NCBI RefSeq assembly: GCF_001870675.1
Contig: NZ_MEHT01000001.1
Coordinates: 248,001-312,000, forward strand
Source of the DNA: Roseinatronobacter thiooxidans
GTDB lineage: Bacteria > Pseudomonadota > Alphaproteobacteria > Rhodobacterales > Rhodobacteraceae
DNA length: 64,000 bases
Direction of reading: 5' to 3'
Part shown: positions 10,148 through 45,688 of the stretch, piece after piece
Numbering within the stretch: position 1 is the stretch's first letter
Layout of the letters: each line of letters opens with the position of its first letter
Notes under the pieces: model-generated
The model's database searches: none
What the model was told of the DNA's origin: nothing
The model's input: only the letters and a program-made list of their open reading frames with translations
Made by a program: the position numbers and the translations under genes

Positions 10148-10317
10148 GCGCGGAACAAAGGCGCGAAGCGCCGCCGCGCATCGCCGGGCCGCACCCACGG
10201 CACGGCGATTTGGCTGGGCTACGCGCAAAGCCTTGATCTTACGCGGATTTGGCCAGCATAAAGCGCAATAGCAGCGGGCGAGGATCGCCGCACCGCGGCC
10301 CGACGCTGCGCGGCTTG
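10148..10317 (+). repeat. Dispersed intergenic repeat, copy A (full length)
   Basis: A 170-bp element running from GCGCGGA to GCGCGGCTTG. It aligns without gaps to copy B at 14977-15146, with about 12 differences counted by eye. It contains a head hairpin GGCGC-GAA-GCGCC (10160-10172), a second hairpin built on GCCG/CGGC inside ATCGCC/GGCGAT, and a third near the tail (GGCGA-GGA-TCGCC). It fills the gap between the convergent der and aroC genes. An open frame crosses it on the minus strand, but nothing supports translation. Confidence 0.9.
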
Positions 10318-10329
10318 TCGCGCACAGCC

Positions 10330-11451
10330 TCATTCTGGCGCGCAGGCCCCGATTTCGGCCACCGGCCCTGTGGCCCCTGTCTGGGCGCGGTGCAGCAACA
10401 GCTGGTCCAGCAGAATACAGGCCATCATCGCCTCGCCCACCGGCACGGCGCGGATGCCCACGCAAGGGTCGTGGCGGCCTTTGGTGACAACCTCTGTCGG
10501 CGCACCTGACCGCGTGACCGAGGCGCGCGGCGTGTGGATCGAGGAGGTGGGCTTGATCGCAAAGCGCACCACCACATCCTGCCCTGTGGAAATGCCCCCC
10601 AATATGCCACCCGCCTTGTTAGAGCGGTAGCGCGGGCCATCTGTGCCCATCTCGATCTCATCGGCGTTTTCCACGCCTGTCAGGCTGGCGGCGGCCATGC
10701 CTGCGCCGATTTCCACGCCTTTGACCGCGTTGATTGACATCATCGCAGCGGCCAGTTCGGTGTCGAGCTTGGCATAGATCGGCGCGCCAAGGCCCGCTGG
10801 CACGCCAGAGGCCACCACCTCGATCATGGCACCCACGGAATTGCCATCCTTGCGGATCTGGTCAAGTGCGCGCGCCCAGTCTTCGGCGGCCTGCGCATCG
10901 GGCACCCAGAACGGGTTGCGGTCAATCTCGGCTGCATCAAAGCGGGTGCGGTCTATGTGGTGTGGCCCCATCTGCACCATATAGCCGGTGATCTTCACCT
11001 GTGGCGCAAGGGTTTTCAGCACTTCGCGCGCCACAGCGCCCGCGGCCACGCGCGCCGCCGTTTCGCGCGCGGAACTGCGCCCGCCGCCGCGCGGGTCGCG
11101 CAGGCCATATTTCTGGAAATAGGTGATGTCTGCATGGCCGGGGCGGAATGTGTCGAGGATATTGCCGTAATCCTTGGACCGCTGGTCTACATTGCGGATC
11201 ATCAGCTGAATTGGTGTGCCGGTCGTGCGCCCCTCATAGACGCCCGACAGAATTTCCACCGCGTCTGGTTCGCGCCGCTGGGTTGTGTGCCGGTTCTGGC
11301 CGGGTTTGCGCCGGTCCAGCCATGTCTGGATCATCGCCTCATCCAGCGCCACGCCGGGGGGGCAGCCATCGACCGTGGCCCCAAGGGCAGGTCCGTGGCT
11401 TTCGCCCCATGTGGTGACACGGAACAGATGGCCGAATGTGTTGAAGCTCAT
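10330..11451 (-). CDS. aroC: Chorismate synthase
   Basis: A 373-aa cytoplasmic enzyme that converts 5-enolpyruvylshikimate-3-phosphate to chorismate with reduced FMN, the last shared step of aromatic amino-acid synthesis. Family motifs include the N-terminal [19 protein letters not shown], the segment [18 protein letters not shown] and the [15 protein letters not shown] region near the FMN site. I chose the ATG at 11451 because the conserved MSFNTFG start follows it; upstream in-frame codons are not family-like. It is divergent from the thiamine operon and convergent with der. Confidence 0.95.
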
Positions 11452-11547
11452 GCGCATGCACTCCTTGTATGCGAAACACTTAGCGGCAAGGCGCCACAGG
11501 CTCAAGCACTGCTCTTGCTCGGGCGGGCGAAAGCGATTAACTCTTGC

Positions 11548-11640
11548 GTCACCTCGGGGTGCCCAAACGGGCTGAGATGCGCCTTGCGCGAACCCGTTGA
11601 ACCTGACCCGGTTCGGACCGGCGGAGGGAAGGGTTCGGGC
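11548..11640 (+). promoter_or_regulatory. TPP riboswitch (THI element)
   Basis: The conserved thiamine-pyrophosphate aptamer landmarks appear in order: CGGGGTGCC, GGCTGAGATG (11570-11579), ACCCGTTGAACCTGACC (11592-11608) and CGGAGGGAAGG near 11630. It lies directly upstream of thiB. Binding of TPP is expected to lower expression of the transporter genes, either by termination or by hiding the ribosome-binding site (GGAGAGA just before the ATG at 11691). Confidence 0.95.
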
Positions 11641-11690
11641 GGTCTGCCCGCGTCAGTCTTCGCCTGTCGCAAGAGAGATGGAGAGAGAAT

Positions 11691-12668
11691 ATGACACGTC
11701 CCCTATATGCGACCATTGCGGCGCTGGCCCTTGCGGGGGCGGCGCAGGCCGACACCCTGACAGTGGTGGCCCCTGATTATTTCGGGTCCAGCTGGGGGCC
11801 AGGCCCCGCCATTAAGGAAGGGTTCGAGGCGCGCTGCGATTGCACGCTGGAATTTCGCACAGGCGATGTTCTGCCCCGCCTGATGCTGGATGGCGCGCGG
11901 CTGGAAGGGGATGTGATCATTGGTTTGGGGACCGATGAATTGCTGCGCGCGCGTCAGACAGGGTTATTTGCAGGGCATGGGCAGAATCTGGCCCCGTTGA
12001 GCGTGCCGGTGGACTGGGTGGATGATGTGTTCATCCCCTTTAACTGGTCTTATGTCGCCTTTGTCTATGACCGCACGCGGATGGATAACCCGCCCACCAG
12101 CTTTGCCGAACTGATAGAGCGCAATGATATTTCGCTGATCTGGCAAGACCCGCGTTCTTCCGGGGCGGGGCTGGCGCTGATGCTGTGGGTGGACCAGCTT
12201 TATGGCGATGATGCGCTGCGCATCTGGGAAAACCTTGCCGCCAAGACTGTGACAGTCACTGCGGGATGGTCCGAAGCTTACGGGATGTTCACCAATGGCG
12301 AGGCTGACATGGTGCTGAGCTACACCACATCGCCTGCCTATCACATTGTGGCCGAAGAGGATGACAGCAAGGCCGCCGCGATATTCGACGAGGGGCATTA
12401 TTTCATTGCCGAAGCCGCAGGGGTGCTGGCGGGGGCCGTGCAGCCTGATCTGGCGCGCGATTTCATGGCCTATATCCTGTCGGAGGATTTCCAGCAGATG
12501 ATCGCAACGGCAAACTGGTCCTACCCGTCTGCCCTGCCGCATGACGACTGGCCAGAGGTGTTCCGCAACCTGCCCCTGCCCGAAACCGCGATTTTCCTGA
12601 CCGAGGATGCAGCGGATATGCGCCGCTCGCCTGCCTTGGCGCATTGGCTGGATGGCATGACACGGTGA
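11691..12668 (+). CDS. thiB: Thiamine ABC transporter substrate-binding protein
   Basis: A 325-aa periplasmic binding protein for thiamine and its phosphates. A cleavable signal peptide (about residues 1-20, ending GAAQA) leads into the family start DTLTVVAPDYF. Later segments (TVTAGWSEAYGMFTNGEADMVLSY) match the ThiB/TbpA family. A TPP riboswitch precedes it, and the stop codon overlaps the GTG start of thiP by four bases, so thiBPQ is one operon. Length is typical. Confidence 0.95.
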   Translation: MTRPLYATIAALALAGAAQADTLTVVAPDYFGSSWGPGPAIKEGFEARCDCTLEFRTGDVLPRLMLDGARLEGDVIIGLGTDELLRARQTGLFAGHGQNLAPLSVPVDWVDDVFIPFNWSYVAFVYDRTRMDNPPTSFAELIERNDISLIWQDPRSSGAGLALMLWVDQLYGDDALRIWENLAAKTVTVTAGWSEAYGMFTNGEADMVLSYTTSPAYHIVAEEDDSKAAAIFDEGHYFIAEAAGVLAGAVQPDLARDFMAYILSEDFQQMIATANWSYPSALPHDDWPEVFRNLPLPETAIFLTEDAADMRRSPALAHWLDGMTR

Positions 12669-14242
12669 CGCGCGACCCTGCCCGCACAGCGCGCGCGCTG
12701 GTTTTACTGGCGGGCGGGGGTGTTGCGGCGTGGCTGCTGGTGTTGAATTTCGGCGCGCTGTTGGCTGTGGCATGGCGGGCCGAAGGGTTCACTGCGTTGC
12801 GCGGTGCCGATTGGGCGGCGGTGCGCTTTACGTTGGTGCAGGCGCTGTGGTCGGCGGCGCTGTCGGTGCTGCTGGCCGTGCCTATTGCGCGGGCCTTGGC
12901 GCGGCGGCGGTTTGTGGGGCGCGATGCGCTGATCATGCTGATGGGCGCGCCGTTTATTCTGCCAACCTTGGTGGCCGTGCTGGGCCTGTTGGCGGTGTTT
13001 GGCCGCGCGGGGCTGGTCAACCAAGGGCTGGAGGGGCTTGGCCTTGCGCGGCTGAACATCTTTGGCCTGCATGGGGTGGTGCTGGCGCATGTATTCTATA
13101 ACCTGCCCTTGGCCACGCGCATTTTGCTGCAAGGCTGGGCTGCGATCCCTGCCGAACGGTTCCGCCTTGGGGCCAGCCTTGGGTTTGGCCCGCGCGATAC
13201 ATTCCGCCAGTTGGAATGGCCCATGCTGCGCGACTTGGTTCCGGGCGCGTTTTTGGTGATTTTCCTGATCTGCCTGACCAGTTTTTCCGTGGCGCTGACG
13301 ATGGGCGGCGGGCCACGCGCCACGACGGTGGAGCTGGCGATTTATCAGGCGTTCCGGTTCGATTTCGACATGGGCCGCGCGGCCATGCTGGCGCTGGTGC
13401 AGTTCGGGTTATGCGCGGGCGCGGGGGTGCTGGCGTGGCGTGTGGCGCTGCCTTCCGGGCTTGGCGGGGGGATGGACCGGCCCGTGTTGCGGTTTGACAC
13501 AGGCGCTGTGTGCCTGCGGGTCTGGGATGGCACGCTGATTGTGGCGGGGGCGCTGTTCCTGCTGGTGCCGCTGGCGCTGGTGGTGCTGCGCGGCGCGCCG
13601 CATGTGACGGGCCTGCCGCCAGAGGTGTGGCAGGCCGCTGCGCGCTCGCTTCTGGTGGCGCTGGGCGCGACGGGTGTGACCCTGGCCATGACGCTGGCGC
13701 TGGCGCATGCGGTGTTGGCTGTCGGGCCGGTACGCGGGGCGGTGCTGGAATGGCTGGGGCTGGCGGCCTTGGCGGCCTCTCCCCTTGTGATTGGCACGGG
13801 CCTGTATCTGCTGATCCGCCCGCTTGCCAACCCGCGCGATTTTGCGCTGCTGGTGACAATGCTGGTGAATGCAGGCATGGCGCTGCCCTTTGCCCTGCGG
13901 CTGATCCTGCCGGGGTTGCGCGATGTGATGGCCAGTCAGGGGCGGCTGGCCGATAGTCTGGGCCTGCATGGCTGGGCGCGGCTGCGGATTGTGACCCTGC
14001 CGCGCCTGCGCCGCCCTTTGGGCTTTGCCGCCGGATTGACGGCAGCCTTGTCGATGGGCGATCTGGGGGTGATCATGCTGTTTGCCGAGCGCGAGGGGGC
14101 AACCCTGCCGATGCAGCTTTACCGCCTGATGACCGCCTACCGGCTGGATGATGCGGCGGGGGCAGCACTTGTGCTGCTGGGGGCCAGCCTTGCGCTGTTT
14201 TGGCTGTTTGACAGATGGGGGCGCGGGCGTGCTGAGGCTTGA
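12665..14242 (+). CDS. thiP: Thiamine ABC transporter permease
   Basis: A 525-aa inner-membrane permease with about 12 hydrophobic segments, a duplicated fusion of two MetI-like halves as in E. coli ThiP. Two EAA-type loops are visible: the first around RFRLGASLGFGPRDTFRQLEW and the second around GRLADSLGLHGWARLRIV. I chose the GTG at 12665, which gives the GTGA overlap with thiB; a TTG at 12644 is also in frame but would overlap thiB more. It works with ThiB and ThiQ. Confidence 0.94.
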   Translation: MTRDPARTARALVLLAGGGVAAWLLVLNFGALLAVAWRAEGFTALRGADWAAVRFTLVQALWSAALSVLLAVPIARALARRRFVGRDALIMLMGAPFILPTLVAVLGLLAVFGRAGLVNQGLEGLGLARLNIFGLHGVVLAHVFYNLPLATRILLQGWAAIPAERFRLGASLGFGPRDTFRQLEWPMLRDLVPGAFLVIFLICLTSFSVALTMGGGPRATTVELAIYQAFRFDFDMGRAAMLALVQFGLCAGAGVLAWRVALPSGLGGGMDRPVLRFDTGAVCLRVWDGTLIVAGALFLLVPLALVVLRGAPHVTGLPPEVWQAAARSLLVALGATGVTLAMTLALAHAVLAVGPVRGAVLEWLGLAALAASPLVIGTGLYLLIRPLANPRDFALLVTMLVNAGMALPFALRLILPGLRDVMASQGRLADSLGLHGWARLRIVTLPRLRRPLGFAAGLTAALSMGDLGVIMLFAEREGATLPMQLYRLMTAYRLDDAAGAALVLLGASLALFWLFDRWGRGRAEA

Positions 14243-14921
14243 AGATGTGACCATCCTGCAGGATGATTTTTCCCTGCGTGCCGGTCTGGAGGTGGCGCGG
14301 GGTGCGCGTGTGGCGGTTATTGGCCCGTCCGGGGCGGGCAAGTCCACGCTGCTGGGCGCTGTGGCGGGGTTTGTGCCCGTGGCGCAGGGGCGCATTCTGT
14401 GGGCGGGCGCGGAGATGACAGGCCAAAGCCCTGCTATGCGCCCGATTTCTGTGTTGTTTCAGGATAATAACCTGTTTCCGCATCTGTCGGCCTTTGACAA
14501 TGTGGCGCTGGGCCTGCGCCCGTCTTTGCGGCTGGGTGTGGCAGAACGCGCGCAGGTTGCAGCGGCGCTGGCGCGGGTGGGGCTGGAGGGGCTTGGCACA
14601 CGCCGCCCTGCGCAACTGTCCGGCGGGCAGCAAAGCCGCGTGGCGCTGGCGCGGGTGGTGTTGCAGGGCAAGCCGCTGGTGCTGCTGGACGAGCCGTTCT
14701 CGGCGCTTGGCCCCGCGCTGAAGGTCGAAATGCTGCATCTGGTGGCCGAGATTTGCCGCGAGACAGGCGCGACATTGCTGATGGTGACGCATGACATCGC
14801 TGACGCGCGCGCGATTGCGGACCAGACGATATTGGTGGCCGATGGCGTGGCCGAAGGCCCGTTTGAAACGGCGCAACTGTTGGCGAACCCGCCAGAGGCA
14901 CTGCGGGCGTATTTGGGCTAG
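14229..14921 (+). CDS. thiQ: Thiamine ABC transporter ATP-binding protein
   Basis: A 230-aa ABC ATPase that powers ThiP. Visible motifs are Walker A (GPSGAGKST), the Q-loop (SVLFQDNNLFPHL), the signature (LSGGQQSRVALAR), Walker B (LVLLDEPFSALGP) and the switch His (VTHDIADA). The GTG at 14229 gives the normal ThiQ start (LRLEDVTI) and overlaps thiP by 14 bases. A longer in-frame extension to 14148 would lie wholly inside thiP and is not family-like. Confidence 0.95.
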   Translation: MLRLEDVTILQDDFSLRAGLEVARGARVAVIGPSGAGKSTLLGAVAGFVPVAQGRILWAGAEMTGQSPAMRPISVLFQDNNLFPHLSAFDNVALGLRPSLRLGVAERAQVAAALARVGLEGLGTRRPAQLSGGQQSRVALARVVLQGKPLVLLDEPFSALGPALKVEMLHLVAEICRETGATLLMVTHDIADARAIADQTILVADGVAEGPFETAQLLANPPEALRAYLG

Positions 14922-14976
14922 GGTTCGGCTGTATGGAGTAAATCAGGTGTTGTCGCGCCCGTTTCCGCAAGGAGTT

Positions 14977-15146
14977 GCGCGGAGTCAAGGCGCGAAGCGC
15001 CGCCGCGCATCGCCGGGCCGCACCCACGGCACGGCGATTTGGCTTGGCTACGCACAAAGCCTTGATATTACGCGAATTTGGCCTGCATAAAGTGCTGTAG
15101 CAGGGGGCGAGGATCGCCGCACCGCGGCCCGACGCTGCGCGGCTTG
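14977..15146 (+). repeat. Dispersed intergenic repeat, copy B (full length)
   Basis: A 170-bp element, colinear and gap-free with copy A. It has the same head hairpin (GGCGC-GAA-GCGCC) and ends in GCGCGGCTTG. It sits between the convergent thiQ and fur-family genes. Differences from copy A cluster just after the head, in the loop around AAAGTGCTGTAGC, and at a few single positions in the middle; the hairpin arms are unchanged. Confidence 0.9.
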
Positions 15147-15171
15147 CCACCTGCAAGAGTGCCTGCGCGCT

Positions 15172-15579
15172 TTACTTCACCTTGCGACCCAGCAATTCCA
15201 GCCGGTGCCCTTCCAGCCGGTAGCCCAACCGCCGCGCGATTTTTTCCTGCAACGCTTCGATCTCGGGGTCGCAGAATTCGATCACCTCGCCGGTATCCAT
15301 GTCGATCAGGTGGTCGTGATGCGCGCGTTCGCTGTCTTCAAACCGTGCGCGGCCATCGCCAAATTCCAGCCGGTCCAGAATGCCGGTTTCTTCCAGCAAT
15401 TTCACAGTGCGGTAGACTGTGGCCAGCGAGATGCGCGAATCCAGCGCATTGGCGCGGGCGTGCAATTCTTCGACATCGGGGTGTCCGTCCGCATCCTCGA
15501 TCACGCGCGCGATGGTGCGGCGCTGGTCTGTCATCCGCAGACCCTGTGCTTCCAGACGGTCAAGAATGGATTTGTTCAC
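15172..15579 (-). CDS. Fur-family metalloregulator (Fur/Mur type)
   Basis: A 135-aa transcriptional repressor of the ferric-uptake-regulator family. The N-terminal winged helix carries LRMTDQRRTIARVIEDA and the recognition segment SLATVYRTVKLLEE. The dimerisation/metal domain has AHHDHLIDMDTGEVIEF. It lacks the C-terminal CxxC zinc pairs of enterobacterial Fur, as is common in alphaproteobacterial Fur/Mur, which often senses manganese. The start is a GTG. It is divergent from the ChrA-type transporter across 140 bp, which may contain promoters for both; no clear Fur or Mur box was recognised there. Confidence 0.88.
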   Translation of the reverse strand: MNKSILDRLEAQGLRMTDQRRTIARVIEDADGHPDVEELHARANALDSRISLATVYRTVKLLEETGILDRLEFGDGRARFEDSERAHHDHLIDMDTGEVIEFCDPEIEALQEKIARRLGYRLEGHRLELLGRKVK

Positions 15580-15719
15580 GCTGGTTTCCTTGGCACTGCC
15601 TTGGAGGGCAGTTTAAACCCTCTCGTCCGGCCTGAAAACCGTTAATCGTGGCCCAAGGACTGGACGTCATGCCAGTGCTGCCCCATGAAGGGGTACCCGA
15701 ACATGGCATAGGGGGCGAC

Positions 15720-16925
15720 ATGACCGATGTGACGCAAACGCCGCAACAGGGCAGCGCGCGAGAGGTGTTCTGGGCCTTCCTGAAACTTGGGCTGACCAGT
15801 TTTGGCGGGCCGATTGCGCATCTGGGCTATTTCCGCGACGAATTGGTAACACGCAGGGGGTGGGTGTCAGAAGCCGCCTATGCCGATCTTGTCGCGCTGT
15901 GCCAGTTCCTGCCCGGTCCTGCCTCCAGCCAGGTGGGGTTTGCGCTGGGGCTGATGCGCGCGGGCTGGCTGGGCGCGCTTGCGGCTTTCACCGCGTTTAC
16001 GCTGCCCTCGGCACTGGTGCTGCTGGGTTTTGCGATGACTGCGGCCAATCTGGCGGGGCCGGTGGGAACGGGCGCGCTGAACGGGTTGAAGATTGTGGCG
16101 GTGGCGATTGTGGCGCAGGCCGTGCTTGGCATGGCGCGCGCGCTATGCCCTGATGCAGCGCGCGCCGCGATTGCGGCGGCGGCGGTGGTGGTGCTGGCCT
16201 TTGTGCCGGGGCCGCTGGGCATGGTGGGCGCGATCACGCTGGGCGGGGTGGCTGGGCTGATGCTGGGGCGCGGGGCCACTGCGCCTGCCGGCAGGTCTGC
16301 GCCAGTGCCAGTGTCGCGCGGTGTGGCGCTGGGGGCGTTGGCCGCGTTTTTTGCCTTGCTTGCGCTGTTGCCGCTGGTGGCGGGGCAGGCGCAGGCGCTG
16401 GCCGTGATTGACAGTTTCTACCGCGCGGGGGCGCTGGTCTTCGGGGGCGGGCATGTGGTTCTGCCGCTGTTGCAGGCCGAGGTTGTGGCACCGGGTTGGG
16501 TCAGCCCTGACGCGTTTCTGGCAGGATATGGCGCGGCGCAGGCCGTGCCGGGGCCGCTATTCACCTTCGCGGCGTATCTGGGCGCTGTTCTGGGGCCAGA
16601 GCCGCACGGGCTGGCAGGGGCTGCGCTGGCACTGGCGGCGGTGTTCCTGCCGGGATTCTTGCTGTTGGTGGGGGTTTTGCCGTTCTGGGACCAGTTCCGC
16701 CGCATGGCGCGTGCGCAATCGCTGATGCAGGGCGCGAATGCAGCGGTGGTGGGCATATTGGGCGCGGCGCTGTATGCGCCTGTCTTTACCAGCGCGATCG
16801 GAGATATGCGCGATTTCGCGCTGGCGCTGGCCTGTTTCGTGCTGCTGGTCGCGTGGAAAGCGCCGCCTTGGGCGGTGGTTGTGGTTGCGGCTTTGGGCGG
16901 GGTTGGGTTGGCCTTGGCGGGGTAG
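15720..16925 (+). CDS. chrA: Chromate-transporter (CHR) family protein
   Basis: A 401-aa integral membrane protein with two homologous CHR domains, the long-chain ChrA architecture. Each half starts with a signature: FLKLGLTSFGGPIAHLGYF plus QFLPGPASSQ in the first, and FYRAGALVFGGGHVVLPLL plus GAAQAVPGPLFTFAAYLG in the second. About ten hydrophobic helices are visible. Characterised members export chromate, but many paralogues have unknown substrates. I chose the ATG at 15720 as the last in-frame start before the family-like region; an upstream ATG at 15669 is less likely. Confidence 0.85.
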   Translation: MTDVTQTPQQGSAREVFWAFLKLGLTSFGGPIAHLGYFRDELVTRRGWVSEAAYADLVALCQFLPGPASSQVGFALGLMRAGWLGALAAFTAFTLPSALVLLGFAMTAANLAGPVGTGALNGLKIVAVAIVAQAVLGMARALCPDAARAAIAAAAVVVLAFVPGPLGMVGAITLGGVAGLMLGRGATAPAGRSAPVPVSRGVALGALAAFFALLALLPLVAGQAQALAVIDSFYRAGALVFGGGHVVLPLLQAEVVAPGWVSPDAFLAGYGAAQAVPGPLFTFAAYLGAVLGPEPHGLAGAALALAAVFLPGFLLLVGVLPFWDQFRRMARAQSLMQGANAAVVGILGAALYAPVFTSAIGDMRDFALALACFVLLVAWKAPPWAVVVVAALGGVGLALAG

Positions 16926-16964
16926 AACGCGCCGCCTGCGGGGTTGGGATGCACCTGCCCTTGC

Positions 16965-17035
16965 GCGCGGAATCAAGGGCCGCAGGCCCGCCGCGCATCG
17001 GCGGGCCGCACCACCGGCACGGCGATGCGCGGCTT
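16965..17035 (+). repeat. Dispersed intergenic repeat, copy D (internally deleted)
   Basis: A 71-bp form that keeps the head (GCGCGGA, then hairpin GGGCC-GCA-GGCCC), the second GCCG/CGGC hairpin and GGCACGGCGAT, then jumps straight to the tail GCGCGGCTT. About 100 bp of the full element is missing. Its head stem differs from copies A and B at two paired positions, both compensated. It lies between convergent chrA and dgoK-like genes. Confidence 0.75.
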
Positions 17036-17108
17036 TTGTCCGTTTTTCAGCGCCCCCGAAGCCATCATTGCGTTTCTACCCGCATAGGGTAAACCCCAAA
17101 GCGCGGGG

Positions 17109-18020
17109 TCAATGCGCTTGCGGGCGGTGTTGCTGTGGCAGATAGGCGCGCGCAGCACCTAGCCCTGCAAGGGTCATGTCGGCCATGTCATGCAGTGTCA
17201 CAGGCACGGACAGGCGCGCGCATGCTGTGGCATAAGCCTGCGCGACATCCTTGGCCCCGATGACTGCCACGCGCTGGCCCAGCCAATAGGGTTTGGTGGC
17301 CGCCAGTTCCGCCCCGACCAAAAGCCCCGACAGCCGCGCGCGGGCATAGCCGGTGTCTTGGCCGTGCAACAGGGTTTGTGCGCGGATCGAGAACAGCCGC
17401 GCCATCAGCCGCTCTGGCCGTTCCATGCTTTCGTCGAACCCTTGGGCAAAGCCCGCCTCATCCCAGCCGCCAAGCGAATGGCGCAGGGTCGAATGCTCTG
17501 ACAGCAGCGCAAACATTTCGCCTGTCAGGAAGGTTTGAAAACTGACCACCTCGCCCGCGCTGATATGCGCCCATTTGCTATGGGTTCCGGGCAGGCAGAT
17601 CACCCCGTCCCAGTCGGGGTTCAGCGCCATGAACCCCGCGATCTGGGTTTCTTCGCCGCGCATCACATCGGGCGGTGTGGTCTGTTTCAGCCCCGGCACC
17701 ACATGCAGCGACACGCGCAAATCGCGGCTTTCGGCCTGCACCAATGCCTTGCCCAGCGGTGCGCAGGGAACGGGCCTGTAGCTGGCCTCGATCCAGTCTT
17801 TCGCGCCGCCCAGCATGCCGCACAGGATAACGGGTGTTACTTGCCCCTCTGGCAGCCAGTCTTCGATCAATTCCAGCAATGCGGGTTCCATTTCTGCGCG
17901 CGAAAGCTGCGCCATGCCGTGGCCGGATTGTGCAGATTGCACCACAGAATGCCCCGCCAAACCCCAGACGCGCAAATGCGACTGGCCCCAATCTGCTGCA
18001 ATCCAGTCGAGTTTTGTCAT
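17109..18020 (-). CDS. dgoK: 2-dehydro-3-deoxygalactonokinase family protein
   Basis: A 303-aa sugar kinase of the DgoK family, which phosphorylates 2-keto-3-deoxygalactonate in the De Ley-Doudoroff galactonate route. It starts with the family motif WIAADWGQSHLRVW and contains VILCGMLGGAKDW, MRGEETQIAGF and LPGTHSKWAH. Its partner aldolase (DgoA) is not in the window. It lies downstream of murQ on the same strand, opposite nagK/nagA. The true substrate here could therefore be an amino-sugar-related compound; that is inference from context only. Confidence 0.82.
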   Translation of the reverse strand: MTKLDWIAADWGQSHLRVWGLAGHSVVQSAQSGHGMAQLSRAEMEPALLELIEDWLPEGQVTPVILCGMLGGAKDWIEASYRPVPCAPLGKALVQAESRDLRVSLHVVPGLKQTTPPDVMRGEETQIAGFMALNPDWDGVICLPGTHSKWAHISAGEVVSFQTFLTGEMFALLSEHSTLRHSLGGWDEAGFAQGFDESMERPERLMARLFSIRAQTLLHGQDTGYARARLSGLLVGAELAATKPYWLGQRVAVIGAKDVAQAYATACARLSVPVTLHDMADMTLAGLGAARAYLPQQHRPQAH

Positions 18021-18096
18021 TCGGTGGCTACCTTGGCGCGTGCAATCAGGGGGTGGTGATAGGGGGGTTCCGGGCGGTTGGTCAAGGGTGGCGGGA

Positions 18097-18984
18097 TCAG
18101 GGTTTCGTCATCACAAGGGCCAGTGCGCGGCGCAGCACCCCTTCGGCCTGTTCCAGCGCGGCAGCGGCCTGCGCCGCAGTGGCCCCGCGCGCGACCAGAA
18201 CCGCAGGTTTGATGCGCCATTCGGTCTGCTCTAGCGCTGTGTGTGCGGCATCATCTGGCACTTGTGCGATACGGGCAACCATGTCGCGCGCGCGGATGCG
18301 CAGTTTCTGGTTCTGGGGGCGCATATCGACCATCAGCCCGTCATGCACATGGCCCAGCCGCACCATGATCTGCGTGGACAGCATGTTCAGCACCACTTTT
18401 TGCGCGGTTCCTGCCTTCATGCGGGTAGAGCCTGCCACCACCTCGGCCCCTGTTTCCAGCAAGATGCCATAGCGTGCGACCCGCAAAAGCGCTGTGTCGG
18501 GGTTGCAGGCAATGCCCACAGTCAGCGCGCCTGCGGCCTGTGCCGCCTCTAGCGCGGCGATGGTGAAGGGTGTGCGCCCGCTGGCCGCAAGGCCGATGAC
18601 GGTATCTTGCGCGTTTAGCGCGGCTTGCGCCACTTGTGTGCGCGCGGCATCCGTGTCGTCTTCGGCGCCTTCAACGCTGTGCATCAGCGCGCCCGGCCCG
18701 CCTGCGATCAGGTATAGCGTGCGCGTGTCGGGCCAGTTGAAAGTGGGGCCAAGTTCGGTTCCGTCCTGCACCGCGATCCGGATCGAGGTGCCCGCGCCCG
18801 CATAGACCAGCCGCCCGCCCGCGCGCAGGCCGGGCAGGGCCGCTTCGACAACCTGCGCAAGCGCGGGCAGCGCGGGGCGAATGCTGGCCAGCGCGCCAAG
18901 CTGGCTTTCCCAGATGGCCGCAAGGGCGGTCTGGCTGTCCCAACTGTCCAGCATGCGGTATCGCGGGTCGGCAAATTCTGTCAT
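18097..18984 (-). CDS. murQ: N-acetylmuramic acid 6-phosphate etherase
   Basis: A 295-aa SIS-domain lyase that removes D-lactate from MurNAc-6-phosphate to give GlcNAc-6-phosphate in cell-wall recycling. Visible motifs are GGRLVYAGAGTSIRIAVQDG, the ELGPTF segment with the likely catalytic Glu, LAASGRTPF and the GSTRMKAGTAQKVVLNMLST signature. I chose the ATG at 18984 (MTEFADPRYR); in-frame codons upstream look like non-coding sequence. Its product would be used by the NagA encoded just across the divergent promoter region. Confidence 0.93.
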   Translation of the reverse strand: MTEFADPRYRMLDSWDSQTALAAIWESQLGALASIRPALPALAQVVEAALPGLRAGGRLVYAGAGTSIRIAVQDGTELGPTFNWPDTRTLYLIAGGPGALMHSVEGAEDDTDAARTQVAQAALNAQDTVIGLAASGRTPFTIAALEAAQAAGALTVGIACNPDTALLRVARYGILLETGAEVVAGSTRMKAGTAQKVVLNMLSTQIMVRLGHVHDGLMVDMRPQNQKLRIRARDMVARIAQVPDDAAHTALEQTEWRIKPAVLVARGATAAQAAAALEQAEGVLRRALALVMTKP

Positions 18985-19128
18985 CGGGGCGTGCCTTTGG
19001 TCTGGTGTCAGAACGGGTATGAGATGGCTGTGCGCGCATGGCAAGCCCTGCCTGTATGGGCACTAGGCCGAAAAAGCGCTTTTCATTCGCGCCGTTTTCA
19101 GCATGTGTTTTGGGAAAAAGGGGGTGCG

Positions 19129-21167: not shown

Positions 21168-21215
21168 GCGGATCATTCGCGCCACGGCAAGAGGCGCGCT
21201 TTTGTGGCGGGGCGT

Positions 21216-25203: not shown

Positions 25204-26268
25204 TTATTTCCCGGCTGATGACGTTTGCACGCGCTGCAATGCGGCCTGCATGATGCGCGCGGCGTCGTGCCACTGTGGCAATCTTGCAGCCAGTTCCGTG
25301 CTTTTGGCGGCATAGGCATGGCGCAAGCTGTCATCTTGCAAAAGCTGCGCCAGCCCATTGGCAAATGCGGTTGCGTCATTGGGTGGCACCAAGATGCCGC
25401 TGCCCTGCGGCACGGTCTGCGGTACGGCCCCCACGGCGCAGGACAGGATCGGCAGGCCGTATAACTGCGCCTCGCTCAGGACCATGCCATACCCCTCATA
25501 CCGCGTGGCAAGTGCAAAGAGGCTGGCGTCGTGGTAAAGCTGGTCCAGCGCATCGGGGGGGATTTCGCCTGTGAAGCGCACGCGCCCTTCCAGCCCAAGC
25601 CGCGCGCGTTGGTGCAAAAGCCTGTCATGCACATCGGCTTCGTGTACCATGCCGACGATTGCGGCCTGCCAGTCCAGATGCGCCACTTGCGCCAGTGCAT
25701 CCAGCAGCACATCATGGCCTTTGCGTTCGCAGATAATCCCGACGGACAGGATCAGTGGCGGGCGGGGCTTGGATAGGGTGCGCAACCTGGGGCGGTCGAA
25801 CCCCGGCAGCGCAATCGAGATATTGGCCTGCGCCACGCCGAAATCCTGCACCAGAATATCGCGCGTGTGGGGCGAGGGGACGACAACATGCGCGGCATGG
25901 CGCAAATTGGCCTTTTCGCGGGCCAGCAATGCGGCGGCGCGCTCGGGGGCCAGCCCCGCTTCCAGCCCCAAAGGGTGGTGCAGCATGGCAATGACAGGCC
26001 GGTTCAAACCCGCCAGAATTTGAGTGTCCATTGCGCCAAATACCAGCCCGTCCAGAACCAGCGGCATGCCTTGGGGCAGGGCGGCAAGCTGGTCTGCCAG
26101 ATCGCGCGCGGCCTGTGGTGTTGGATCAGGCCAGGAGGGCACAACTTCCACATGGCGGGTGGGCTGGCCGATTGCGCGCAGGCTTTCCAGCATCCGCCGG
26201 TCATAGATATACCCGCCTGTTCGTGTGTTGATGTCACCGGGAATGGCGAAGGCGGCCTCTGGCTGCAT
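25204..26268 (-). CDS. Glycosyltransferase, GT4 family
   Basis: A 354-aa GT-B-fold glycosyltransferase. The N-terminal domain starts with FAIPGDINTRTGGYIYDRRML, with a Gly-rich acceptor-side loop. The C-terminal donor-binding domain has LILSVGIICERKGHDVLLDAL and YEGYGMVLSEAQLYGLPIL, the E-x7-E motif of GT4 retaining enzymes. The donor and acceptor cannot be read from sequence. It shares its strand with the molybdopterin gene downstream (82-bp gap) and the NDP-sugar dehydratase upstream, and plausibly serves surface-glycan synthesis with the latter. Confidence 0.85.
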   Translation of the reverse strand: MQPEAAFAIPGDINTRTGGYIYDRRMLESLRAIGQPTRHVEVVPSWPDPTPQAARDLADQLAALPQGMPLVLDGLVFGAMDTQILAGLNRPVIAMLHHPLGLEAGLAPERAAALLAREKANLRHAAHVVVPSPHTRDILVQDFGVAQANISIALPGFDRPRLRTLSKPRPPLILSVGIICERKGHDVLLDALAQVAHLDWQAAIVGMVHEADVHDRLLHQRARLGLEGRVRFTGEIPPDALDQLYHDASLFALATRYEGYGMVLSEAQLYGLPILSCAVGAVPQTVPQGSGILVPPNDATAFANGLAQLLQDDSLRHAYAAKSTELAARLPQWHDAARIMQAALQRVQTSSAGK

Positions 26269-32429: not shown

Positions 32430-32492
32430 GCGCTAGGGTGCGCCACCAGACAAGAGAGAGGCAATGACAGCTTTGAGGGCTGGGGGACAAGA

Positions 32493-32659
32493 CAAGCCGC
32501 GCATTGTCGGGCCGTGGTGCGGCGATCCGCGCCCCCTGCTACAGCACTTTATGCTGGAAAAATCCGCGTAAGATCAAGGCTTTGCGCGTAGCCAAGCCAA
32601 ATCGCCGTGCCGGGGGACGGCCCTTTGAGGCGCGGCGGCCTACGGCCTTTACTCCGCGC
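32493..32659 (-). repeat. Dispersed intergenic repeat, copy C (inverted)
   Basis: A 167-bp copy on the minus strand, running from GCGCGGA (32659 leftward) to CGGCTTG. It is close to copies A and B across the middle and tail. The head is diverged and three bases shorter; its hairpin reads GGCC-GTA-GGCC. It fills the gap between the convergent SDR-like gene and the 660-aa gene. The rest of the 313-bp gap shows nothing else. Confidence 0.88.
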
Positions 32660-32742
32660 AGGCGAATGGCAGATTAGTCCCGCACCTGACCTTTGTCACA
32701 CATGGCGGCGTCTTGTGTCAGCTGCCGAACAGCAGGGGCCAG

Positions 32743-34725: not shown

Positions 34726-34859
34726 TGCCGGTTATCCTGTGACGCGCGATTTTACGCCGGTTTATGTGTCCAAATTGCGCCGCTTTGCGGCCGGATTGCA
34801 AGGCGGCGCGGTGCGGTCGTGGGAAAACTGCCACATCCGCCCGCCGCGCCGCTGCATGC

Positions 34860-37945: not shown

Positions 37946-37947
37946 GG

Positions 37948-38343: not shown

Positions 38344-38352
38344 GGGGTTCTC

Positions 38353-39306: not shown

Positions 39307-39575
39307 GGCAGCACCCGCCTTTGGTGGGGTACCATAGCCTGCAGCCCCGCGCCGCAGAACGCCCGCGCGCTGTCGCCTGAAAGCCCGCCCCACCCGTAGG
39401 TGTATGAAACAAAAGGCACTGGATGCATGGTAGTCCTGTTTATTGCCAAGCGTGTTGAGATGTAGCCCTGTATGGGCCAAGGCAAGCATGCCGCGCGGCA
39501 AAGTGTCGCCCAAGCCCCATTGGACCGGCGCGATACCGCGCTAGTTTACGCCAGAATGCAAGAAAGGTTGACCAG

Positions 39576-40307: not shown

Positions 40308-40313
40308 CGCGCA

Positions 40314-41096: not shown

Positions 41097-41135
41097 GGTA
41101 TGGTTTGCCTGTGGGTAGTGGGGGCTGCGTAAAAC

Positions 41136-41774
41136 CTAGGGCACATCACGGCCACAGCCAGCCTTGCGGGCCACGATATAGGGGTTTTGGGCATAGGCCC
41201 CGAAAATGCGCTGCTCGACAATCTCGAACCCTGCATCTTCCAGTGCCTGGCGTAACTGCGCGACACTTAGCATCGTGGCGACCGGAAACACCCCAAACAC
41301 CCGCAGCACCGCAAACAGCGCGCGCAGCCACAGTTTTACATCTGCAAAACACCATGTCTTGCAGATCAGCAGGCCATGCGGTTGCAGGCTGGCATGGATG
41401 CGGGCCAGCAGTTCGGGCATATCGTCCACCAGATGCAGCAGGTTGAAGGCGCAGATTGCATCGAACGGGCCATCTTCCAGCGCGTGCCGGGCGTCGGCAA
41501 TTTTAAAGCTCACCCCCTCGGCCCCCGGTTTGGATTGCGCAATGCGCACCATTTCGCCCGAAAAGTCGGTGGCAACCCATTGCGCGACCTTCGGCGCAAG
41601 ATGAATGGCCGTGCCACCTGTGCCACAGCCAAGTTCCAACACGCGGTCGGTGGTGCGCAGATGGGCCGCAGTGGCCGCCAGCATCGCATCATAGGCAGGC
41701 ACGTCTTTCAGCGGGCGCGCGGCATAGCGCTGCGCGATCCTGTCCCAGAAGCGGCGGTTTTTGTGGCGCGTCAT
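41136..41774 (-). CDS. Class I SAM-dependent methyltransferase
   Basis: A 212-aa methyltransferase of the UbiE/Methyltransf_11 type. Motif I is RVLELGCGTGGTAIHLAP, then WVATDFSGEMVRIAQSK, then DAICAFNLLHLVDD. The C-terminal half has a hydrophobic segment (LWLRALFAVLRVFGVF) that may touch the membrane, as in lipid or quinone methyltransferases. I chose the ATG at 41774; the frame is open further upstream but that would overlap the CIA30 gene. It shares its strand with the CIA30 and stress-protein genes. Confidence 0.86.
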   Translation of the reverse strand: MTRHKNRRFWDRIAQRYAARPLKDVPAYDAMLAATAAHLRTTDRVLELGCGTGGTAIHLAPKVAQWVATDFSGEMVRIAQSKPGAEGVSFKIADARHALEDGPFDAICAFNLLHLVDDMPELLARIHASLQPHGLLICKTWCFADVKLWLRALFAVLRVFGVFPVATMLSVAQLRQALEDAGFEIVEQRIFGAYAQNPYIVARKAGCGRDVP

Positions 41775-41796
41775 GGGGGCGGTCCTTCGCTTTGGG

Positions 41797-42354
41797 TCAG
41801 TAAAAGCCGATTTCGCGCAGCTCGATTTCCGCGTCATGGTCGCGCCCGAAGGCCACAATGGCAACAGAGCGCAGACTGCCCACACGCGGCACGGCCCGCA
41901 GCAACGCGCCAGAGGGGGAAAACGCATCCAGCGGAATGCGGATTTCTGCCCATGTGCCTGTCACGTCAAACCCTGCCTGATAATATTGCCACGGCAAAAC
42001 TGTGCCGCTGGTGCGCAAATGCACAAAGTAGCGCTGGTCATTGCCGCGCACGACCAGCCGCAGGCCTTGGGTGCCATCTGGTGGCGGGGCTTGCAGGTCC
42101 AGCCGCATCTGGATGAAGCCGCCATTATTCGCCGTGCTGACACGTCCTGTCATGCGCGCAAAGGCGACACTGCCCTCTTGTCGCATTTCGACCTGCCCGG
42201 TCGAGATGCCGCCCATCACGCCATCCGAGAAGAACCGCCAGCGCGTTTCAGGCTGCATGGTGAAATCTTCGATCAGGGTCTGGCTGGCCAGCATACCGGG
42301 GGCAGTGGTGCAGGCCAAAAGCGTGGCGATGAGGACTGGTCTGAAAATGTGCAT
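41797..42354 (-). CDS. CIA30-domain secreted protein
   Basis: A 185-aa protein with a signal peptide (residues 1-23, ending GMLAS) and a complex-I intermediate-associated protein 30 (CIA30/NDUFAF1-like) beta-sandwich. The family landmarks are WRFFSDGVMGGISTGQVE and NNGGFIQMRLDL. In bacteria this domain is galactose-binding-like and of unclear role. Export to the periplasm is predicted from the signal peptide. It sits 22 bp upstream of the methyltransferase gene, so the two may be co-transcribed. Confidence 0.85.
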   Translation of the reverse strand: MHIFRPVLIATLLACTTAPGMLASQTLIEDFTMQPETRWRFFSDGVMGGISTGQVEMRQEGSVAFARMTGRVSTANNGGFIQMRLDLQAPPPDGTQGLRLVVRGNDQRYFVHLRTSGTVLPWQYYQAGFDVTGTWAEIRIPLDAFSPSGALLRAVPRVGSLRSVAIVAFGRDHDAEIELREIGFY

Positions 42355-42426
42355 CTGGTCCTTGGGAGAGAGCGAGGGGCGCGCGGGCGGGTATATCCGG
42401 GGTGATATGACCCGCCGCGCCTGTGA

Positions 42427-43290
42427 TCATCTGGTCAGAACAACCGGCACCTTGCAAGAGCGGATCATGGCCGTGGTGGTGGACCCGATGATCAGGGTGC
42501 GGATGCGCGAATGCCCGTATGCGCCCATCACCAGCAGGTCAATCTGTGCCTCATCGATCAGCTTGCCAAGCGCGGTTTCCGGCTGGCCCGCAATGACAGA
42601 GGTTTCAGCGTCCAGCCCTGCCGCTTTCAGCAGCGCTTTTGCGTCTTCCAGCCCCTTTTTCACCTCTGCCGTGGGGGTGCCCACTGTCACGACATGCACC
42701 TGCAAGCCCTGAAACAGCGGGCTGCGGGCAATGTGGTCGATGGCTTTCATTGCCGATACGCCGCCGTCATAGGCGACCAGCACTTTCGAGATGGGTTTGA
42801 ACGCGCGCGAGGCTACGAAAACAGGTTTCGTGCTGGCGCGGATGATTCGCTCTAAGTTCGATCCAAGATGGCCCTTGGCGAAATCCGCCGCCTCGCCGCG
42901 CTTGCCGATCATGATAACGCGGGCGTCTTTTTCGATCTCGCCCACGGCCTCGACAATGTCGCCCTGCCGCAGGCGGGTGGTGATTTCATTGACGCCGGCC
43001 TTGTCCAGAATGGCGCGGGCATCTTCCAGAATGGCGCGGCCCCGATGGCTGGTCAGCTTGGCGCGCTGTGCGTCCAGTTCGGCCAGTTCCTGCAACAGGG
43101 CGGTGCGCGCGCCCAGTTTGATTGTGCCAGAGAAATCTGCCGCTTCGGGTGCGTCGCGCCGCCCAAGGACATGGATCAACTCTACCGGCGCGTCGGTGCG
43201 CTGGGAAATCCATGCAGCATGGTCGCAAACGCTGGCGGAATAAACAGACCCGTCAACAAGGGCCACGATTTTTTGTGGGTGTTCAGTCAT
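42427..43290 (-). CDS. Universal stress protein, tandem UspA domains
   Basis: A 287-aa cytoplasmic protein with two Usp domains. The first starts KIVALVDGSVYSASVCDHA; the second starts KVLVAYDGGVSAMKAIDH and ends with the ATP-binding signature VMGAYGHSRIRTLIIGSTT. The first domain has MIGKRG where the full G-2x-G-9x-G(S/T) signature would be, so it is probably degenerate. It lies 13 bp downstream of a SulP transporter, a frequent pairing in bacteria in which the Usp protein may modulate transport. Confidence 0.9.
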   Translation of the reverse strand: MTEHPQKIVALVDGSVYSASVCDHAAWISQRTDAPVELIHVLGRRDAPEAADFSGTIKLGARTALLQELAELDAQRAKLTSHRGRAILEDARAILDKAGVNEITTRLRQGDIVEAVGEIEKDARVIMIGKRGEAADFAKGHLGSNLERIIRASTKPVFVASRAFKPISKVLVAYDGGVSAMKAIDHIARSPLFQGLQVHVVTVGTPTAEVKKGLEDAKALLKAAGLDAETSVIAGQPETALGKLIDEAQIDLLVMGAYGHSRIRTLIIGSTTTAMIRSCKVPVVLTR

Positions 43291-43303
43291 GGTCTATCCC
43301 TTT

Positions 43304-44794
43304 TCAATGCGACATCAGTTTATCCATCGCGCCCGGCTTGTCATGGATGGCAAGCTTGTCGACGATGGTTTCTGTCGCTTCATTCATGCCGATCACCTCT
43401 ACCTCGGCCCCGTCACGGCGGAATTTCAGAATTGCCATGTCCAGCGCCTGCACCGAAGAGATGTCCCAGATATGCGCGCGGCTGACATCGATGATGACTT
43501 TGTCCAGCGCTTCCTTGAAGTCGAACGCCTCCATGAAATCTTCGACCGAGCCGTAGAACAACTGCCCCTCGACCGTATAGGTGCGCATGCGCCCGTCTTT
43601 GGAAATATCGCTGCGCATGGTGAAGAGTTGCGCGATCTTGCCGGCAAAGAAAATGCCCGACAGCAGCACGCCCACCAGCACCCCAATCGCAAGGTTGTGG
43701 GTGTAGACAACAGTGACAACTGTTGCGACCATCACGATAGAGCTGGAGCGCGGATGCACCCGCAGCGCCTTGATAGACGACCAAGAGAAGGTGCCGATGG
43801 ACACCATGATCATTACCGCGACCAAGGCGGCCATGGGAATTTGTTTCACCAGATCCCCCATCACAAGGATCAGAAACAGCAGATAGACGCCTGCGGCAAA
43901 GCACGACAACCGCCCCCGCCCGCCGGATTTGACGTTGATAATGCTTTGCCCGATCATCGCACAGCCCGCCATGCCGCCGATAAAGCCGGTTGCGGTGTTG
44001 GAAATGCCCTGCCCGATACATTCCTGATTGCGGTCCGAGCGCGTGTCGGTCAGGTCATCGACGATATTCTGTGTCATCAGGCTTTCCAGCAGGCCCACAA
44101 CCGCGATGGCCATGGAATAGGGGAAAATGATCATCAGCGTCTCAAATGTCAGCGGAATGTTCGGGATCAGGAACATGGGCAATGTGTCGGGCAATTCGCC
44201 CATATCGCCTACGGTGCGCACATCCAGCCCCAGCGCCACCGCAACAATCGTCAGCACAACGATTGTCACCAAGGGCGAGGGGATGGCCTTGGTCAGCATG
44301 GGCAGGCCGTAGATGATGGCCAGACCAGCGGCGACCAGAACATAGGTGATTAACGACACCTCGCGCGGGTCCAGTTCGGGCAATTGCGCCAGAAAGATCA
44401 GGATTGCCAGCGCGTTGACAAAGCCGGTCATCACCGATTTCGACACATAGCGCATGACAAAGCCAAGTTTCAGAATGCCTGCGCCGATCTGCAACAGCCC
44501 TGCCAGCACAGTGGCTGCAAGCAGGTATTCCAGCCCGTAATCGCGCACCAGCGTGACCATCAGCACTGCCGTGGCCGCCGTTGCCGCCGAGATCATACCC
44601 GGCCTGCCGCCGGTAAAGGCGATCAGCACAGCAATCGAGAAACTGGCATAGAGGCCCACTTTCGGGTCCACGCCCGCGATAATGGAAAAGGCAATCGCTT
44701 CGGGGATCAGCGCCAGCGCCACAACCAGCCCCGCGATAAGATCGCCGCGCACATTGCCGAACCACTGGTCGCGGTAAGCATTTAGTGAAATCAT
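43304..44794 (-). CDS. SulP family anion transporter with STAS domain
   Basis: A 496-aa inner-membrane transporter of the SulP (SLC26-like) family, moving sulfate, bicarbonate or other anions. The family start is [22 protein letters not shown], about 12-14 hydrophobic segments follow, and residues from about 390 form a cytoplasmic STAS domain ([17 protein letters not shown]). Substrate specificity cannot be read; BicA-type bicarbonate uptake is as likely as sulfate. I chose the ATG at 44794 ([13 protein letters not shown]). The Usp gene follows in the same operon. Confidence 0.9.
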
Positions 44795-45373
44795 GTCATA
44801 GGTTCCTGACCGGCAAAAGCTGCGCAACAGCGCGCCGGTATTTCATGGTGTTTATTCTGGTTATCCGGCGGATCAGCGGCCGGAAGAGCCACCCGGGCTT
44901 GCACCGGGTCCATGCGATTGGCCCGAGCCTTACGCGAAAAGATGCATCCTGAGCAACTTGAAAAGGCATAAATCCCGCCGCAGCGCAGGAAACCCCGCGC
45001 CTATGCGGCTTTTATAATCATCTGTCTGGCAAAAGGCGCATGGGATCGTGCGTGCCTTTCCGTCGGGGCGCAGTGGCGCATTTCAGGTTTTGGCACGCCC
45101 GCCTTGGTGCCCCAAAAGGCAAAATTCGCGCCTGCACAGACCCATGCGAACCCAGCCCATCGGCAGGATTCGGCCTGATGGGGTGCCTTTGTGTTTGTAT
45201 CATGCGGCCTGCGACTATAGCTTCCCACCACTAGGATGCAGCCGGACCTTAGTACCAACGCGTAGCCGATCTGCTTCGTTCCACCATAATCTTCGTTCCG
45301 TGCCGCAAAAATTGCGCGCCACCATACCTGCATCATGTCGCATCAGACCCCTTCAACATACAGAAAGAACACA
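44795..45373. other. Intergenic region upstream of SulP operon and lipoprotein gene
   Basis: A 579-bp gap between divergent genes. It holds a hairpin ACCCGG-N7-CCGGGT (about 44893-44911) 100 bp upstream of sulP. Its right part (45000-45330) has an open minus-strand frame of uneven composition that I cannot match to a protein; it could be a relic. No riboswitch of a known class was recognised. Confidence 0.45.
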
Positions 45374-45592
45374 ATGCAAACTCTTCTTGGCATTTCGGTA
45401 CTGACCTGGGGCTTGGCCCTTTCGGCCTGCGCCCCTGTCCAGCCGGAAGTCTCTCGCTCTGCTGTCGCTCAGGTGCAAAGCAATCCGGCGACAGGTGACA
45501 AAGGCCTGATCACCCCGCCCGCTACGCCAGCCCATAACTGGACCTGCACAGCCTCTGGTGCGGGCATGGCGGGGAAATGTATGAATAACTGA
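45374..45592 (+). CDS. Small predicted lipoprotein
   Basis: A 72-aa protein with a signal peptide and lipobox ending at Cys19 (LALSAC), followed by a Pro/Ala/Gln-rich mature part with two more Cys near the end (WTCTASGAGMAGKCMNN), which could form a disulfide. I do not recognise a family. The ATG at 45374 gives the natural lipoprotein start; an ATG at 45335 would prepend polar residues. Confidence 0.65.
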   Translation: MQTLLGISVLTWGLALSACAPVQPEVSRSAVAQVQSNPATGDKGLITPPATPAHNWTCTASGAGMAGKCMNN

Positions 45593-45632
45593 CATGCTGC
45601 CTGTGGTTGTCACGGGCGATCACAGACCCCCG

Positions 45633-45688
45633 GCCTTGCCCACGGCACACCCTTTCAGGCGCGGCGGCCCGTGGCCTTGTGCCCGCGC
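45633..45688 (-). repeat. Dispersed intergenic repeat, copy E (head only)
   Basis: Read on the minus strand from 45688, it shows the head of the element: GCGCGG, hairpin GGCC-ACG-GGCC, then CGCCGCGCCT and AAAGGG as in copy C. The similarity fades after about 55 bp and no tail was found. It lies between the convergent small-lipoprotein and GH26-like genes. Confidence 0.6.

Follow-up and report, generated by a model that had tools for sequence, protein, structure and literature searches.

A palindromic repeat dispersed behind gene ends was characterized in a 64,000-nucleotide stretch of the genome of Roseinatronobacter thiooxidans (contig NZ_MEHT01000001.1, positions 248,001 to 312,000; hereafter the window), in which its copies were designated A to E, and was followed through the rest of this genome and in related genomes. 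The core of the repeat followed stop codons at a distance of approximately 60-100 nt, could face either way and was nearly excluded from divergent gaps. Its fold was conserved and covarying, being under constraint, and the cores were homogenised within species, while some orthologous gene ends were re-used, often with a reversed core. With moderate confidence, we regard the repeat as a family of non-autonomous palindromic 3'-end elements of Rhodobacteraceae resembling the repetitive extragenic palindromic (REP) sequences, which would be constrained in fold, kept from promoters and refreshed by copying.

Location of the repeat relative to gene ends

The genome of R. thiooxidans (3.5 Mb, 50 contigs) was searched with copy B, for which the best 40 of 100 candidates were scored, and with a longer query (best 40 of 71). 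At least 41 copies were detected, as 41 matches, all but one of them long, were obtained with copy B, and the longer query added one at C34:74454. The neighbourhoods were retrieved and their genes assigned by a codon-pair gene caller, with gene calls shorter than 200 nt and profile hits below 25 bits disregarded; every long match of copy B in this genome was covered. The 42 typed copies fell in 25 convergent, 16 tandem and no divergent gaps, with one unclassified at a contig edge, and the copy at C34:74454 (L190), outside these 42, was in a tandem gap. Three congeners were sampled at 20 regions each. The gaps were 18 convergent, 11 tandem, 0 divergent and 1 unclassified in G021 (30 copies; at least 36 matches in the genome), 14, 7, 0 and 0 in G020 (21 copies; at least 36 matches), and 17, 12, 1 and 0 in G007 (30 copies; at least 55 matches). 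The four congeneric genomes together gave 74 convergent, 46 tandem, 1 divergent and 2 unclassified copies (n=123), and the fragmented fifth genome, G019, gave 4, 9, 0 and 8 (n=21). Seven copies on different publicly annotated plasmids, out of 96 matching records, were in four convergent and three tandem gaps according to an incomplete gene table. The sequence-only reading of the window had placed the repeat solely between convergent genes. Over the whole genome, the junctions found with copy B bore out the convergent enrichment and the near-emptiness of divergent gaps but not the exclusivity, as the tandem copies (16, against 25 convergent, of 42) ruled out a strictly convergent location.

When transfer RNA (tRNA) genes were counted, two tandem gaps of R. 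thiooxidans (L027 and L039) became convergent, and a possible small open reading frame (ORF) would do the same for a third (L038); tRNA scans of the remaining loci of the four genomes changed no gap type. A called gene overlapped the core in 4 of 144 copies, and the gene caller overlooked some genes, such as one beside L090:3071. The sole copy in a divergent gap was found at 5806-5971 of L090 in G007, and the gene on its right was 84% identical to the gene whose 3' end precedes the R. thiooxidans copy L030:6146. Some cores of G007 formed short direct arrays in which they recurred every 255-265 bp or so (L096 at 6682, 6936 and 7201; L098 at 524 and 784; L107 at 2993 and 3248). One core lay 30 bases from a contig start (L017, G000 C17:30) and one arm ended at a contig end (L189, G000 C42), indicating that the assembly may lose copies.

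The placement was compared with the gaps in 17 stretches of 20 kb taken from the same genome away from known copies, which comprised 41 convergent (3,763 bp), 39 divergent (10,234 bp) and 210 tandem gaps (24,230 bp). For the 41 copies, and with one 6,170-bp gap omitted, gap length predicted 4.8 convergent, 13.1 divergent and 23.1 tandem copies, compared to the observed 25, 0 and 16. The distribution in proportion to length that the sequence-only reading had named as its refutation was thus not what was found. Convergent gaps were approximately five-fold over-represented in this genome (P 8e-14), no copy was divergent (P 1e-7), and convergent gaps were preferred over tandem ones (P 5e-10). When the number of gaps was used instead, 5.8 convergent, 5.5 divergent and 29.7 tandem copies were expected (P 6e-12 for the surplus of convergent copies and P 0.003 for the lack of divergent ones).

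More than one third of the copies were tandem and these were mostly nearer to the upstream stop codon, so that the rule reads "behind a gene end" rather than "between convergent genes". In tandem gaps, the core was closer to the stop codon of the upstream gene in 38 of 44 cases, and 24 cores were on the strand of the genes and 20 on the opposite one. The median distance from stop codon to core was 60-73 nt, depending on the genome, in tandem gaps and 72-99 nt in convergent gaps. Placement just behind the stop codon in either orientation was therefore the better rule.

A bidirectional terminator or insulator, whose palindrome would stop or pause RNA polymerase from both sides and be selected at convergent junctions, could explain the 25 convergent copies against 4.8 expected by length, the indifference to orientation, the long folds predicted on both strands and the presence of the repeat at some gene ends in several species. 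Two overlapping terminator-like sites were also detected on the minus strand of the head hairpin of copy A. However, none was detected in copies B or D, and the region 9500-18500, covering A, B and D, contained 10 such sites, compared with 10.0 in shuffled sequences. In an intrinsic terminator a G+C-rich hairpin is followed by a T run, but the core has no long T run; on the plus strand, 106 of 127 copies had a longest run of three, as did 118 of 127 when the minus strand was read. In addition, only approximately 25 of approximately 420 convergent junctions of R. thiooxidans were occupied (an estimate), 46 of the 121 classified copies were tandem, and 9 of 23 sampled congeners had no match. We consider a terminating or insulating role possible but unlikely.

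REP and bacterial interspersed mosaic elements (BIMEs) bind gyrase, IHF or DNA polymerase I, and BIME-2 of Escherichia coli provides a comparison for sites of gyrase or nucleoid proteins that relieve positive supercoiling between converging polymerases. A site acting likewise at the DNA level would suit the location at gene ends and convergent junctions, the palindromic DNA and the indifference to orientation, but tandem copies are common and the same nine congeners are without a match; such a function, analogous to that of BIME-2, appears very improbable.

Conserved fold and arms of the repeat

Two mutually exclusive helices can form in the core, namely, a local hairpin between ATCGCC and GGCGAT, and a long-range stem between head and tail, in which GGCGAT pairs with a second ATCGCC and two outer helices are added. 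These were evaluated on an alignment of 35 cores, for which 15 genomes were drawn upon (four congeners with six cores each and 11 other genera with one each). In the long-range structure with the head hairpin, 97.3% of 874 cells were paired, the covariation score was 0.102, and changes on both sides were seen in six pairs and 30 cells. On four of five measures, none of 500 shuffles was as high, and sliding the partners lowered the long-range pairing to 34-53%. In the local structure with the head hairpin, 97.1% of 455 cells were paired, and the 17 cells changed on both sides and the covariation score were unmatched by shuffles, while 354 of 500 shuffles attained its two doubly changed pairs. 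The three hexamers all changed together in G020, where an additional base in the head was also matched by an additional base in the tail. When partners were swapped among the copies of a species, the own partner of the head hairpin was better in four of four species; for the long-range stem, the own partner was clearly better solely in the R. thiooxidans genome.

On the plus strand of copy B, the minimum-energy fold was local and the centroid long-range, and on the minus strand the minimum-energy fold was long-range; the fold energies were unremarkable compared with shuffles (z of -1.3 and -2.1). Departures of the G-U type, counted as column-by-genome events, numbered 24 on the minus strand versus 10 on the plus strand in the long helix, and 5 on the plus versus 2 on the minus strand in the local helix. 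As the baseline substitutions of other columns leaned likewise (430 versus 334), this strand signal was weak, and the counts are only suggestive of strand-specific folding. A dispersed small RNA, or an RNA device of the 3' untranslated region (UTR) whose strands fold differently, would agree with the differing minimum-energy folds of copy B, with the covariation in both mutually exclusive helices and with the lean of the G-U departures. On the other hand, the plus-strand centroid shares the long-range fold, the baseline lean is the same, and no Rfam family was matched, as the two Rfam matches in the window at the gathering score were not at a copy and eight core-bearing loci gave none up to E 1. 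We find such a device hardly credible.

The alignment of the copies showed a well conserved core with ragged flanks. From 20 aligned copies of R. thiooxidans, inverted arms of approximately 60-80 nt were delineated on each side, giving a whole element of approximately 300-330 bp, and the arms were less conserved than the core within the very same copies. The arm profiles derived from this genome also matched the flanks of cores in G021 and G007, in either arrangement to the core. The core was direct relative to the arms in 23 copies of R. thiooxidans (20 of which were the training copies), reversed in 6 and unclear in 9, and the corresponding numbers were 4, 10 and 15 in G021 and 6, 7 and 17 in G007. 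Both orientations were thus seen in three species; in G020, all 20 of 20 copies were unclear. GANTC was present at the core head in 99 of 127 copies and was not invariant.

One solitary left arm lacking a core was found at a stop codon (L188, 3961-4035, minus strand). An 88-base arm search of the R. thiooxidans genome gave 18 matches at E up to 10, and those below E 1 adjoined cores, except for a solo arm at C45:12959 and another where a contig ends. This search demonstrated no empty site, and insertion of the core into the loop of a pre-existing palindrome was not adopted. An IS630-like miniature inverted-repeat transposable element (MITE) whose TA target would lie within CTAG stop codons, suggested by the appearance of the arms, was also set aside, as the ends were too ragged for a judgement and the arms did not covary.

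Turnover and distribution of the repeat

The 116 cores of four genomes clustered by species, with four label changes on the tree compared to a minimum of three, and near-identical, recent cores were present in G021. Among five genomes, 16 cross-species rows (15 junctions) had both flanking genes orthologous, and the core was reversed in 11 of them and in the same orientation in 5; in 27 rows only one flanking gene was in common (with gene strand left out of the count). R. thiooxidans and G021 had eight junctions in common, six of which were convergent. Chance would give approximately one, as estimated from 25 and 18 convergent copies over approximately 422 convergent junctions. In the reversed pairs, the arm scores differed by at least 8 in 5 of 11, where the arms kept their gene side in four and swapped it in one.

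The clearest case was observed between G021 (L052) and G019 (L263), in which the outer DNA was identical at 50 of 56 and 93 of 100 positions and the core was reversed, but the inner flanks, approximately 35 nt at either side of the core, were unrelated. A clean inversion in place was rejected here, as the reversed core aligned while the inner flanks aligned in neither direction. The L052 core belonged to a young cluster of the tree, and together with the unrelated inner flanks this makes replacement by another copy, via conversion or re-insertion, the likelier reading of the two sequences; two independent insertions at one point are possible. Among 13 orthologues of the gene downstream of this junction, two had a core and 11 showed none, although the contig ends at the locus of G016, the upstream gene is missing in G015 and G003 may be rearranged.

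Similar patchiness was seen at other gene ends. A core was present within 120 nt behind the Fur-family gene of copy B in 5 of 20 matching genomes, four in one orientation and one in the other, with too little DNA to judge at two of the 20 loci. Behind the gene beside L030:2045 a core was found in 4 of 22 genomes, one of them partial, and the DNA ended at the gene in two. At the junction of der and aroC in named genomes, none of 80 aroC loci carried a core with an E value of 0.1 or better; by chorismate synthase, Natronohydrobacter and Roseinatronobacter were the nearest named relatives, at 87-90% identity. One element of R. thiooxidans (14977-15146) is flanked by the thiQ-like and Fur-family genes, which each adjoined an element with other neighbours in G021 (L060:3563 and L058:3537), showing that synteny breaks at the repeat.

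The best 21 candidates per genome were scored in a survey of 40 genomes, and the best two in surveys of the family and the class. In the first, 16 genomes matched: R. thiooxidans, 14 of 23 other congeners, some with one weak match, and 1 of 16 other-family genomes (E 2e-4). The family survey gave matches at E 1e-5 or better in 62 of 296 genomes, namely, R. thiooxidans, one congener and 60 of 294 other genera, while in the class survey 3 of 288 other genomes matched with only fragments of 31-49 nt. Plasmid matches were found in 96 records, all of Pseudosulfitobacter, Salipiger or Roseinatronobacter. As a 613-kb plasmid of Roseinatronobacter sp. S2 matched at two places, of which the better covered 39% of the query, the chromosome-only location that had appeared to hold in G020 and G021 was dropped. 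One plasmid copy of Pseudosulfitobacter sp. DSM 107133 (L315) was separated by approximately 200 bp from a gene annotated as an IS110 family transposase, and farther out an IS30 family gene followed. Carriage by phages was also set aside, as the phage collection gave no match; viral contigs contained no exact match of one 22-base pattern.

These data could be explained if recombination, or a mobiliser acting on hairpins, inserted cores at sites behind gene ends or converted such sites to them, with the inverted arms letting a donor align in either direction. Selection would purge insertions that part a promoter from its gene. The hairpins would be transcribed within the 3' UTR of whichever gene reads into them and, by analogy with REP hairpins, would probably slow 3'-5' decay and dampen read-through, with a mild effect on neighbouring 3' ends.

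A neutral or selfish MITE in intergenic DNA, filtered by promoter damage and without a host role, would also have inverted arms and the patchy presence described above. In G021, moreover, 16 of 34 copies were less than 10 kb from another copy, compared to 5.4 expected, and such clustering, like the near-identical recent cores, would be natural for a MITE. However, conservation is higher in the core than in the arms and extends across genera, which uniform decay would not yield. Different species re-use some junctions, the copies favour convergent over tandem gaps, and no transposase was identified (only the Y1 family was searched). A core compensated in its fold across genera and re-used addresses count against a merely neutral element, and we judge this explanation improbable. 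The alternative offered by the sequence-only reading, that insertion is tolerated only at such junctions, fitted better than termination, but the re-use of junctions across species exceeds mere tolerance. A further reading would have certain gene ends as lasting addresses for a 3'-end device indifferent to orientation, where a species-specific master core repeatedly overwrites the resident, often reversed, and the local or long-range fold of each strand acts on transcripts from both sides; this we regard as doubtful.

Several observations weigh against the REP-like reading that we favour. In the fold alignment, the fifth measure of the long-range structure, further pair types (7), was reached by 444 of 500 shuffles. 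Covariation of the arms within a copy was found in none of four species. The scores assigned no side to the arms in 6 of the 11 reversed pairs, and one pair, L026/L280, fitted inversion of the whole element better (arm score of 25 on the same side and 39 when swapped). Tandem copies outnumbered convergent ones in G019. The nine congeners without a match, three of which were less than 90% complete, speak against an important host role. A search of R. thiooxidans for the REP-type Y1 transposase (PF01797), the only mobiliser family searched, gave 0 matches; the same search was positive in 5 of 14 control genomes.

The repeat adds a structured family, widespread in one bacterial family and without an Rfam match, to a much-sequenced bacterial group. 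It provides a natural test for REP-type repeats of whether a place behind genes reflects function or tolerated insertion, since the address is kept while the occupant is replaced and reversed, and relatives that have the family can be set against relatives that lack it.

Copies in the window and comparison with known repeats

Three full cores are present in the window. Copy A (10148-10317, plus strand), identified by pairwise alignment and the family profile, lies between der (EngA) and aroC (chorismate synthase); its left arm is only partial, and the match of the extended profile begins at 10109. Copy B (14977-15146, plus strand) lies between the thiQ-like gene of an ABC ATPase and the gene of a Fur-family regulator, and copy C (32493-32659, minus strand) between the gene of an NAD(P)H-binding protein and a 660-aa gene that had no Pfam or NCBIfam match at E 0.001. 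With both arms, the element of copy C (32431-32742, minus strand) occupies its gap entirely from stop codon to stop codon. Copies A and B were 93% identical over 171 nt, the inverted copy C was 90-91% complementary to them over 124-126 nt, and the core common to the three was 169 bp. Copy D (16965-17035, plus strand), between the genes of a chromate transporter and 2-keto-3-deoxygalactonokinase, has an internal deletion, as core positions 1-61 are joined directly to the last few core bases and the middle is gone. It is followed by the right arm at 17036-17100 (plus strand), which the extended profile (E 0.0017) and the arm profile (E 0.26) matched weakly. The family profile gave 144-146 bits for A, B and C and 44 bits for D.

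The stretch E (45633-45688, minus strand) is probably a degenerate remnant of a core head rather than a demonstrated copy. It was statistically marginal, with 5.4 bits (E 0.48) from one profile and 1.8 bits from another, and 71 of 1884 random segments of the window matched the core head as well or better. By eye, an arm-like CGCCACCTGATTCAAGG is discernible at 45731-45747 (minus strand), approximately 55 nt upstream of E, at the distance expected of an arm. Of the five copies described earlier from the letters of the window, A to D were thus recovered by alignment or profile, while E was marginal. Our gene caller agreed with the earlier count of 12 convergent junctions, giving approximately 12-13, and again found the copies in the longest ones. 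This ranking is conditional on two points: two weak ORFs at 25531-26023, for which no Pfam family was above the cut-off, would if real create a 447-bp convergent gap without a copy, and the convergent junction of E hinges on an 85-aa ORF (45335-45592) that the gene caller overlooked.

Two structured RNAs were also identified in the window. A thiamine pyrophosphate (TPP) riboswitch (RF00059, 67.5 bits, 11545-11646, plus strand) directly precedes the gene of a solute-binding protein (11691-12668, Pfam SBP families), in a gene run that ends with the thiQ-like gene preceding copy B. A sul1 RNA (RF03058, 77.1 bits, 44859-44914, minus strand) is located upstream of a sulfate-permease family gene (43304-44794, PF00916).

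No published description of this repeat was recognised in the literature searched, which lacked most subscription papers. The CIR repeats of Caulobacter and Brucella are likewise alphaproteobacterial and intergenic, exceed 100 bp and have inverted-repeat arms, and they carry GANTC (PMC2229807), a motif that is frequent but not invariant in the present repeat. They are approximately 110 bp long, compared to 169 bp here; the comparison is one of descriptions only. Outside its family, the present repeat left only fragments in 3 of 288 genomes of the class. Br-REP1 of Bradyrhizobium is also a palindromic repeat, being composed of three palindromes and first met in the overlapping 3' UTRs of a convergent pair, and RNA data suggest complementary small RNAs, according to the accessible portion of the paper (PMC5082802). 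It has a 20-base central palindrome and approximately 200 sites, and by eye its consensus as printed there was unlike the present core. Correia, ERIC and similar MITEs share the inverted ends, the non-coding location and the dispersal, as far as the partial text tells (PMC2229807); here the core is better conserved than the ends, no target duplication was identified at the ragged ends, and no parent transposase was identified in a search limited to Y1.

The REP unit, in the excerpts available, measures 20-40 bp, whereas the present repeat is 169 bp (approximately 300 bp with arms) and forms several nested helices. The layout given for CGTC REPs in the accessible text, with a stem of 8-9 bp, a loop of 4-5 bases and a CCA tail (PMC3733652), was unlike this core by eye. 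A REP mobilised by a RAYT was not adopted, as the search for Y1 transposase gave none in R. thiooxidans, which in this respect differs from REP/BIME systems. The likeness is one of location and structure. According to the portions of the sources at hand, REPs are found mainly between unidirectional and convergent ORFs (PMC3733652) and are frequent between convergent genes (PMC1525189). Like the GTAG and CGTC super-families of REP/BIME described there (PMC3733652, PMC1525189), the repeat is palindromic, extragenic and multi-copy and lies behind coding regions in convergent and unidirectional gaps, and its divergent placement is rare (74 convergent, 46 tandem and 1 divergent, with 2 unclassified of 123).

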